From contig NZ_JAGKQQ010000001.1 in assembly GCF_017939745.1 (NCBI RefSeq), positions 6,463,299 to 6,527,298 on the forward strand: a DNA stretch of 64,000 nucleotides, written 5' to 3'. This stretch comes from Gemmata palustris. Its GTDB lineage: Bacteria; Planctomycetota; Planctomycetia; Gemmatales; Gemmataceae. Below the pieces are notes generated by a model that saw only the letters and a program-made list of their open reading frames with translations, made no database searches and was not told the DNA's origin. This document shows positions 5,720 to 60,522 of the stretch, one piece after another. Within the stretch, counting starts at the first letter, position 1. Each line of letters opens with the position of its first letter. A program made the position numbers and the translations under genes.

Positions 5720-5794
5720 TTCTGTAGCCGGCCTCTGCGAGGCCGGGACTTCCACGGTTGGTGGCTCCCGGCCTCGCAGAGGCCGGCTACAGAA
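5720..5794. repeat. Long inverted repeat, family A (TTCTGTAGCCGGCCTCTGCG arms)
   Basis: Two perfect 29-base arms (5720-5748 and 5766-5794) separated by 17 bases. Each arm also contains a smaller palindrome, GGCCTCTGCGAGGCC. A closely related copy lies at 34138-34212, and the bases just after each copy are also alike (ATCGGCACGATTCG versus ATCAGCACGATTCG), so the element extends past the hairpin. It sits between the cytochrome gene and the GMC gene on the minus strand and could act as a partial transcription barrier or RNA stabiliser; that role is inference. Confidence 0.85.
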
Positions 5795-25587: not shown

Positions 25588-26966
25588 GGCGCCCAGAAGA
25601 ACCTACCCCGTCCCCCCTCCCTAAAGGGAAGGGGGAGAATGGGGCGTGGCGCGAACTGATAGCTCGTGGAAGTCAACGACCGTGGTTCTCTCACCCCCTT
25701 CCCTTTAGGGAGGGGGGACGGGGTAGGTTCTTGCCCCTTCTCTTACTCTTCGCCCTCCCCGCTTGCGCACCTAAGCCCGGCGCGTCCGCGGCCGACGCGG
25801 AGGCGAAGCCGGTGCCCGTTACGGTGGCCGATGCGAAGCCGATGGCGCTGCGCCGAACGGTGCCGGTTGTCGGCACGCTGTACCCCTACGAAGACGTGAC
25901 GCTTTCGCCGAAGGTGGGCGGGCGCGTGCTCCGCGCGTTCAAGGACGTGGGCGATCGCGTGGCACCGGGCGAACCGTTGCTCGAACTCGACGCCACCGAG
26001 TACCGGCTCGCGGTCGATCAGGCCCGGCCCGCGTTCGAGGCCGAACTCCGCAAGCTGAAACTCATTACGCTCCCCGCGACCGATGCCGCGTTCGAGCAGT
26101 GGATCCCGCGCGTGGACGCGGTGGCCGAAGCGAAGGCCAACGCGGAACTCGCCGATTCCGAACTGAAGCGCGCCGAGCGGGAGATGGCGAGCGGTGTTGG
26201 ATCGAGGCAGATCCTCGACTCGGCCACCAATCGGCTCACGGTCGCGAAGACCCGCGTTCAAGTCGCCGAGACGGATGCGCGAGTCACGCTCGCAAACGCC
26301 CGGCGCCTCAAGGCCGCACTCGACGACGCGGAGCGCAAACTCGGCGACACGAAACTGAACGCCCCGAACCCGGCTGAGTGGAGCGAGTGGCTGAAGGAAC
26401 TCGGCCCGACCACCACGCCGCTCAAGTACGCGGTCGCACAAAAGATGGTGTCGATTGGCTCGCCGGTCGAATCGACGCCCGCAACGAGTTGCTACCGGCT
26501 CGTGATCGACCATGCGCTGAAGTTCGGCGCTACCATCCCCGAAAAGCACGCGCCCGAAGTGGCTCTCGGGCAATCCGTGGAACTGCGGGTCGAAGCGTAC
26601 CCGAACCAGCTCTTTACCGGCGGCGTTGCGCGGATCAGCCCGACGACGGACACGGACAATCGCACGTTCGCCGTGGTGATCGGCGTGCGCAACGGCGACG
26701 GTCGGTTGAAGGCCGGCGGGTTTGCGACGGCCGAAATCGTGGTCCGGTCCGACACTGTTGTGACCGTTCCGCCGGAAGCGCTCGTGCAGTTCGCCGGGGT
26801 GAACAAGGTCTTCGTCGCGGACGGCAATAAGGCGAAGGTCGTCGAGGTCGGGATCGGTGCGCGCGACAAGGAGTGGCTCGAAGTGACCGGCCTGCCGGTT
26901 GGGGCGAAGGTCATCACGAGCGGACAATCGCAGTTGGTGGACGGGGCGCTCATTCGGATCCGCTGA
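25584..26966 (+). CDS. RND efflux periplasmic adaptor lipoprotein, N-terminus extended by a hairpin element
   Basis: 460 residues. The start at 25584 overlaps the TetR stop. The first five codons are followed by about 45 codons made almost entirely of an inverted-repeat element (25599-25730). Only after it does the expected lipoprotein signal appear: FLPLLLLFALPACAPKPG, with lipobox LPAC. The rest is a normal membrane fusion protein: VTLSPKVGGRVLRAFKDVGD (biotinyl-lipoyl half, about residues 107-126), a coiled-coil hairpin (about 165-255) and the second lipoyl and beta-barrel parts (LRVEAYPNQLFTGGVARISP). It would link the pump to an outer-membrane channel, which is not encoded here. A TTG at about 25731 could be an alternative start that skips the element, but it would give a signal without positive residues. 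Confidence 0.85.
   Translation: MRRPEEPTPSPLPKGKGENGAWRELIARGSQRPWFSHPLPFREGGRGRFLPLLLLFALPACAPKPGASAADAEAKPVPVTVADAKPMALRRTVPVVGTLYPYEDVTLSPKVGGRVLRAFKDVGDRVAPGEPLLELDATEYRLAVDQARPAFEAELRKLKLITLPATDAAFEQWIPRVDAVAEAKANAELADSELKRAEREMASGVGSRQILDSATNRLTVAKTRVQVAETDARVTLANARRLKAALDDAERKLGDTKLNAPNPAEWSEWLKELGPTTTPLKYAVAQKMVSIGSPVESTPATSCYRLVIDHALKFGATIPEKHAPEVALGQSVELRVEAYPNQLFTGGVARISPTTDTDNRTFAVVIGVRNGDGRLKAGGFATAEIVVRSDTVVTVPPEALVQFAGVNKVFVADGNKAKVVEVGIGARDKEWLEVTGLPVGAKVITSGQSQLVDGALIRIR
25599..25730. repeat. Inverted-repeat element, family B, inside a coding sequence
   Basis: Perfect 37-base arms (25599-25635 and 25694-25730, beginning GAACCTACCCCGTCCCCCCT) around a 58-base centre. The arms hold a nested palindrome CCCTTTAGGG. 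The whole element lies in frame within the start of the RND adaptor gene. A related element is at 51462-51559 (arms beginning ACCTAACCCCCCACCCCCCT). Confidence 0.92.
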
Positions 26967-34078: not shown

Positions 34079-34137
34079 CTGCCCCGAGGTGGGCGGCGTG
34101 CGGAGCGCTTCGCTCATACAACTGCGTTTTAACTGCC

Positions 34138-34212
34138 TTCTGTAGCCGACCTCTGCGAGGCCGGGCAGCCACGATCACAGGATGCCCGGCCTCACAGAGG
34201 CCGGCTACAGAA
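34138..34212. repeat. Long inverted repeat, family A, second copy
   Basis: Arms of 30 bases (34138-34167 and 34183-34212) with two mismatches and a 15-base loop. Same family as 5720-5794. It lies between the convergent HAAS gene and the ECF sigma gene and may work as a bidirectional transcription barrier. Confidence 0.85.
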
Positions 34213-34237
34213 GATTGCCAATCAGCACGATTCGATC

Positions 34238-51461: not shown

Positions 51462-51559
51462 ACCTAACCCCCCACCCCCCTTCCCTAAGAAGGAAGGGGG
51501 AGAAAAGAGCCAGTTCTGCTCCCCCTTCCTTCTTAGGGAAGGGGGGTGGGGGGTTAGGT
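51462..51559. repeat. Long inverted repeat, family B, intergenic copy
   Basis: Perfect 41-base arms (51462-51502 and 51519-51559, beginning ACCTAACCCCCCACCCCCCT) around a 16-base loop. The arms resemble those inside the RND adaptor gene at 25599-25730. It lies between the divergent panB and DCC genes, where both promoters should be. Confidence 0.92.
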
Positions 51560-59712: not shown

Positions 59713-60164
59713 GGCGGCCTCGTGTTGCACCGGCTGGCCTTGCGGCACCGGGCGACGCGGCCTGGGCGGAAAGAGGAGGCACCCAGGCAGCCTGTGGTCC
59801 CGAACTACCTCCACCGTACTGCACCGGTCCCATCGGGGTCAAACCGGGAAGTGGGCGGACGTGAAGGTGGCGCGAAAGTACGGGGCGAACGTGACGGTTG
59901 TACCTTTCAAACAATCCCGGTTGGGTCTGCCGGCCGGCCTGTAAGCCGGGTTTTGTCCCCGCCCTTGCGGACGGTGACGGTCATTTATCTAGCCCCGCCG
60001 TTACCGACGGGATCGAGCAGTCTACCCGAGGATCATAACGGGTCGGGCCGACCCTGTCCTCTGCTTGACCTTGCTTCCGGTGGGGTTTGCCGAGCCGACG
60101 AGTCACCTCGCCGCTGGTGCGCTCTTACATTAAGGGCTCGCGCCCCGCACCTTTTCACCCTTAC

Positions 60165-60287
60165 CTGGAACAGGACTCAGGGGGCAGGATTCAGCATTCC
60201 GGGAAGAAAAACACAAGCGGGATTGGAACACCCTCACTGCGGCTTCTGCCCCGAGTCCTGAATCCTGACCCCTGAATCCTGCCCAGG
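60165..60287. repeat. Inverted-repeat element, family G, in the P12 region of RNase P RNA
   Basis: Arms near 60165-60194 (CCTGGAACAGGACTCAGGGG then GCAGGATTCAG) and 60258-60287 pair over about 29 bases with a few mismatches. The unit CAGGATTCAGGGGTC is doubled in the right arm. Confidence 0.85.
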
Positions 60288-60404
60288 CGGTACACTTTCT
60301 GTTGCACTTTCCCGCCCGTTGGCGGCGCGAGCCGGGACGCCCGCGCCGTTACCGAGGGTGGACGTTATCCACCACCGCGCCCTGTGAAGCCCGGACTTTC
60401 CTCC

Positions 60405-60500
60405 CGAACGGGACTCAGAGGTTGGGAGCCGGCACCCGGGACGGTGAAACGCACAGTCCCGATGTACCGAGTCCCGACCCCTGAATCCTGTTCCGGCGAC
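60405..60500. repeat. Inverted-repeat element, family G, in the P3 region of RNase P RNA
   Basis: Outer arms CCGAACGGGACTCAGAGG and the complement of CCGGAACAGGATTCAGGGG pair with few mismatches. The right arm contains ACCCCTGAATCCTG, also found in the P12 element. Confidence 0.8.
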
Positions 60501-60522
60501 CGTCCGGCCGACCGACGGACCC

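Follow-up and report, generated by a model that had tools for sequence, protein, structure and literature searches.

Heptamer repeats in rnpB, the gene for the RNA of RNase P, are already known from cyanobacteria; for instance, Vioque reportedly described in 1997 the STRR heptanucleotide repeats in the rnpB of heterocyst-forming species. The present analysis concerns the rnpB of the planctomycete Gemmata palustris, which lies on the minus strand of a stretch of 64,000 nucleotides (nt; contig NZ_JAGKQQ010000001.1, positions 6,463,299 to 6,527,298; hereafter, the window) and in which helices P3 and P12 are extended hairpins made of 7-base repeats. The cyanobacterial short tandem repeats (Vioque 1997, cited in PMC2858038) are a precedent, and the window shares with them tandem 7-nt repeats within P12. 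Additionally, long-P12 rnpB genes of Nostoc, Calothrix, Scytonema, Microcoleus and Leptolyngbya were found to carry period-7 P12 arrays (two of them checked as RF00010). By contrast, the window belongs to another phylum, uses P3 besides P12, has near-complete palindromes and a unit that varies by species, and its rnpB relatives form a separate family. As the host is not a heterocyst-forming cyanobacterium, the arrays are regarded as STRR-like in behaviour and are not classed as members.

Two further systems are close. According to PMC3488679 and PMC4476775, degenerate heptamers in P6b of the cyanobacterial tRNA-Leu(UAA) group I intron form a hairpin, and the whole region has been repeatedly replaced. 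A heptamer hairpin at a peripheral ribozyme stem and whole-region replacement are thus common to both cases, although the intron is another ribozyme, with a single hosting helix and only two repeat classes, whereas many units are found in rnpB here. The GGGAATC heptamers of Xanthomonas are described in PMC4692102 as dispersed, intergenic, often arranged in convergent inverted pairs and able, potentially, to form stem-loops. Dispersed intergenic heptamers in inverted pairs also occur in the family studied here, but the Xanthomonas work deals with one unit, located outside RNA genes and discussed as a G-quadruplex former. As far as the searchable literature shows, novelty lies in the bacterial family, in the use of P3 as a site, in a unit turnover from species to species that is tied to dispersed families, in the fixed polarity and in the proposed helix-to-helix copying. 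In that literature, which excluded the planctomycete RNase P papers themselves, we found no report of heptamer repeats in planctomycete rnpB; the comparison of planctomycete RNase P RNAs by Butler et al. in 2007 (cited in PMC2858038) is said to include those of Gemmata.

A preliminary description of the window had placed a class A RNase P RNA on the minus strand and the same unit in P3 and P12, and both statements hold. The gene is a full covariance-model match to RF00010, above the gathering score of 100 and covering model positions 1-367 (Table 1); CAGGATTCAGGGGTC occurs exactly in the 5′ arm of P3 and again, at 60281-60267, in that of P12, and CTGAGTC is found in both 3′ arms. The 15-base unit proposed there is indeed present twice, but CAGGATTCAGGGGTC is part of a heptamer array and not a single 15-mer. 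P3 starts with GGAA CAGGATT CAGGGGT CGGGACT, closes with CTGAGTCCC and is 92 nt long, versus 16-24 nt in members of the genus without such a hairpin. The best same-strand match between P3 and P12 comprises 15 identical bases, and a 17-base match (GGAACAGGAyTCAGGGG) joins the P3 5′ arm to the reverse-complemented 3′ arm of P12. Both segments are predicted to fold into closed hairpins (-64.1 kcal/mol for P3 and -81.4 for P12). Because the unit is duplicated, the P3 5′ arm could also pair with the P12 3′ arm, at a predicted -49.1 kcal/mol versus -35.0 for P3 alone and -55.4 for P12 alone.

Table 1. Features of the rnpB gene in the window (window coordinates)
Feature	Position	Strand	Basis
rnpB, class A RNase P RNA, 590 nt	59926..60515	minus	RF00010, 219.2 bits, complete
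P3 with heptad hairpin, 92 nt	60404..60495	minus	single-hairpin fold; 86% identity to sister G002
Common unit CAGGATTCAGGGGTC, P3 5′ arm	60476..60490	minus	exact match
P3 3′ arm CTCCCAACCTCTGAGTCCCGTTC	60406..60428	minus	paired with P3 5′ arm in fold
P12 region with heptad hairpin	60163..60291	minus	flanked by ACCGCC and GGTAAGGGTGAAA; fold
P12 5′ arm, four heptamers CAGGATT CAGGGGT CAGGATT CAGGACT	60254..60281	minus	best period 7, 0.71
P12 3′ arm, reverse complement CAGGACT CAGGGGG CAGGATT CAGCATT	60171..60198	minus	complementary to 5′ arm at 24/28

It might be argued that two GC-rich helices lengthened independently and share a word by chance. P3 and P12 do carry different units in other members of the genus (G002, G004 and G010; G000 denotes the window genome, the other G-numbers its relatives, and C1 a contig of the window genome). 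Nevertheless, CAGGATTCAGG occurs 3 times in the window, whereas not one copy appeared in any of 100 shuffles, and period-7 hairpins occur throughout the family, which makes coincidence extremely unlikely. No relevant source was seen among the other tandem repeats of the window.

The family-wide picture comes from the rnpB of 76 genomes of the window's family, many of them fragmentary assemblies. When periods 4-12 were compared, with an array defined by at least 14 of 21 matches and a long P12 by at least 70 nt, period 7 was found in 31 of the 43 long P12s and any other period in at most 4. The units vary widely (GTGTTTG, GGAAAAG, GGGCAGT, GGATGAA, GCGGAAC, CAGATTT, AGTTAAA, CCGTAGT, TAGGGTT and TCATTCG, among others). 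Recurrence across genera within one mismatch amounts to 23 pairs, versus a shuffled mean of 12.9 (1 of 300 shuffles was as high); recurrence of identical units alone is not significant (2 pairs versus a mean of 0.7, 47 of 300 shuffles). Heptad hairpins in P3 are almost confined to the window's genus, with G051 as one further genome, and the G-rich strand forms the 5′ arm in 38 of 40 rnpB arrays. The comparison with relatives suggested in the preliminary description thus returned the same hairpin type at P3 and P12, with other units and, as described below, abrupt replacement. Beyond the family, 85,000 species genomes were scanned; among the matches listed, ten of which were checked as RF00010, rnpB genes with a period-7 long P12 are mostly cyanobacterial, a few being in records titled Armatimonadetes, Planctomycetota or genera of Bacteroidota (Pontibacter, Adhaeribacter, Spirosoma and Rufibacter). 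The long P12 hairpins of three Hymenobacter rnpB loci (L198, L232 and L264) look period-8 (GGTGAAAT) rather than period-7. In G014, where P3 and P12 are both occupied, a third heptad-type hairpin, with GTGGNNA units, lies directly downstream of rnpB (L013 / L073:13381-13482).

The P12 occupant is exchanged as a block between close species. The rpoB tree groups the window and its two closest comparisons as (window,(G002,G001)) with full support; an arrangement with the window and G002 as sisters and G001 outside is ruled out by it. The P12 unit is CAGGATT in G000 versus GGAAAAG in G002 and G001. The RNase P core of the window is identical to that of G002 and of G001 at 0.961, but its P12 only at 0.40 and 0.34, respectively; in the pair G053/G052, the values are 0.987 for the core and 0.33 for P12. 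All three P12 values fall below the 0.44 obtained for arbitrary pairs. P3, by contrast, is kept between G000 and G002 (86% identical). Likewise, in G016/G004 and G007/G010, as in the window trio, P3 is common to the compared species, and P12 equals P3 in one member and differs from it in the second. Replacement of P12 at a near-identical core, with P3 kept, is not a pattern that gradual helix growth yields. The preliminary description had reserved simple helix expansion for the case in which the unit occurred nowhere else and both helices changed gradually among relatives; gradual change is seen for P3, whereas P12 is replaced abruptly.

Hairpins of this kind are also found away from rnpB. In 1.02 Mb sampled from five genomes, on which the density figures rest, period 7 gave the best account of the arms (0.6 or more) in 11 inverted repeats, which lie mostly outside rnpB, versus six for all other periods together. 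A prediction was fixed ahead of the search, namely that genomes with GGATGAA in rnpB would be rich in GGATGAA. Copies of GGATGAAGGATGAA numbered 108 in G060, 34 in G010 and 26 in G007 (ranks 1, 7 and 8 of 95, most genomes having 0), and copies of GGGCAGTGGGCAGT numbered 48 in G014 and 28 in G008 (ranks 1 and 5), both of which carry GGGCAGTGGGCAGT in rnpB; reversed-sequence controls gave 0 or 1 in nearly all genomes. For these two unit families, then, a genome that has a given unit in its rnpB ranks near the top for copies of that unit. When 39 such sites were fetched in relatives, 37 proved to be hairpins, of 64-142 nt, and the unit was in the 5′ arm, G-rich strand first, in 36 of the 36 with both strands. 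Since polarity of this kind belongs to the duplex, it suggests that rnpB and dispersed hairpins are products of one process. We consider it probable that the P3 and P12 hairpins belong to a dispersed class of heptamer palindromes, of which each genome has its own expanded units. Not every structured RNA is affected, since the tmRNA genes of the genus are uniform in length (402-412 nt in 17 genomes). GGATGAA heptad hairpins were also seen within tRNA gene clusters of G010 and G007 (L360 and L363), and at L061:19350-19545 a heptad hairpin lies nested within longer arms; these are related to CCACGGATnAACnCAGAT, a palindrome of longer period also present in L060, L071 and L084.

The preliminary description had envisaged a mobile hairpin. 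Palindromes that are dispersed outside rnpB, reach high copy numbers and show lineage-specific bursts would fit a classical non-autonomous transposable element with defined ends (a miniature inverted-repeat transposable element, or one resembling repetitive extragenic palindromes) that inserted twice in rnpB. However, the loops of the 37 dispersed hairpins, from two unit families, are unrelated and the heptamer arms alone recur, which does not support a conserved element; there is no conserved core or end, and families with different units have nothing in common but period, polarity and palindromy. We therefore regard such an element as quite improbable.

In-place growth offers another account, in which slippage would expand a 7-base seed in the P3 or P12 stem and quasi-palindrome correction would copy one arm, with no movement at all. 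Heptameric repeats are over-represented in many bacteria, for which slippage related to the polymerase footprint has been proposed (PMC4692102), and dispersed copies with unrelated loops are what local growth would leave, as is an intergenic slot that stays in place while its unit differs between sisters (see below). Growth in place does not explain, on the other hand, why the rnpB units agree with the expanded families of the same genome, why cores that are 96-99% identical go with wholly different units, why units recur across genera above the shuffled expectation or why one duplication of P3 and P12 extends through the loop. On balance, we find it unlikely; the dispersed hairpins of relatives, together with the abrupt change of P12, fit copying or replacement better than gradual helix growth.

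The duplication in question is that of G007, where P3 and the reverse-complemented P12 align over 90 columns with no gap, through the loop as well; the two are one hairpin of roughly 90 nt in opposite orientations. As the loops of other hairpins are unrelated, this match represents a copy of one whole hairpin. In the nine genomes that have arrays at both sites, P3 resembles the P12 of its own genome more closely than it does P12s assigned by permutation (exact p = 0.006, a value that counts related genomes as independent). The preliminary description had argued that the same sequence twice requires insertion or copying; for the class as a whole, abrupt replacement, dispersed palindromes and the G007 copy support this. 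In the window, where the two loops do not match and only the arms agree, copying from one hairpin to the other is judged from the arms, and it probably gave rise to the common unit.

Outside rnpB, the window genome presents a more modest picture. Exact CAGGATTCAGG occurs 3 times in its 9.2 Mb, each time in rnpB, which rules it out as a dispersed repeat of this genome. Thus, a genome-wide search for the unit, as foreseen in the preliminary description, finds the exact dimer in rnpB only, but with up to 3 mismatches CAGGATTCAGGGGTC has 123 sites versus 72 in the reversed control, and two palindromes elsewhere carry the unit in degenerate form. One, at C1:3325891-3326046 (L281:1360-1517), is intergenic, and the sister species have a different heptad-like array (AGTTCCA-like) between the same gene pair, which indicates that occupant turnover is not peculiar to rnpB. 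The other, at C1:6335870-6335946, has an eroded 3′ arm in the slot compared. Neither of these two orthologous slots yielded a clean empty or insertion allele.

Taken together, we favour as the probable account one in which heptad hairpins form a dispersed class, occupy P12 and P3, are replaced as blocks and are copied between helices of rnpB. Such a hairpin would be a palindrome with four or five degenerate 7-base units in each arm, the G-rich strand first and a loop specific to each copy. P12, and P3 in the window's genus, would be sites where landing is tolerated, since lengthening a closed helix there spares the ribozyme core; in this regard, P12 can be dispensable in some bacteria, according to PMC2858038. 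In some lineages, one rnpB hairpin may have been copied onto the other, which would best account for the common unit of the window. Replication or repair, through templated copying between hairpins or template switching, is our best guess as to the mechanism, the repeat number being set by slippage. More broadly, and only tentatively, a hairpin class with no core, defined by its 7-base period, palindromy and G-rich-first order, might spread through bacterial genomes by templated copying of its arms and so rewrite peripheral helices of an essential ribozyme, with copying from one helix of the RNA to another included.

Several observations weigh against the favoured account, among them the mismatch of the window's loops, the confinement of its exact unit to rnpB and the relatedness of the permuted genomes. 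No moving enzyme, target-site duplication, empty site or defined end was identified for the hairpins. The 14-mer searched for occurs 0 times in G053 and once in G059, both of which have a related, non-identical GATGAA-type unit in rnpB, so the rule of unit richness is not universal. Additionally, because G002 and G001 form a sister pair and other units occupy the outgroups, the rpoB tree gives no direction for the replacement of P12 or for copying from P3 to P12. Finally, G-U pairs outnumber A-C pairs in the arms of the rnpB hairpins (97:58, p = 0.002), an excess that maintenance of RNA-strand pairing would be expected to produce, but strand-biased mutation, rather than selection on pairing, could yield an equal result.

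The same excess bears on the fate of the segments in the RNA. Their extreme turnover would be understandable if they were intervening sequences excised from the mature RNA and thus free to vary, and perfect hairpins could conceivably serve as RNase III substrates. In the predicted fold, however, the basal P3 and P12 stems continue unbroken into the inserts, and this continuity, like the G-U excess on the RNA strand, makes excision improbable. The inserts presumably remain in the mature RNA as helices, the likely effect being that a closed helix on the periphery, outside the catalytic core, becomes longer.

An essential and otherwise conserved RNA enzyme would, then, swap whole helices more rapidly than the bases around them change, and the helices swapped would belong to a poorly described repeat class with an unexplained 7-base period. 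Sisters with near-identical cores and unrelated P12 provide a natural series for studying the role of P12 and P3 length and the origin and movement of heptamer palindromes. In such groups, P12 is unsuited as a phylogenetic character.

Other palindromes are also present in the window. Two copies of another family (CTTCTGTAGCCGGCCTCTG...) lie at 5720-5794 and 34137-34213, and this family was also seen in G014 (L078:9198). Perfect 28-nt C-rich inverted repeats of the CCCCCCTCCCTAA type, a further dispersed palindrome family, are found at 25597-25732 and 51462-51559, and L062 contains a similar copy.
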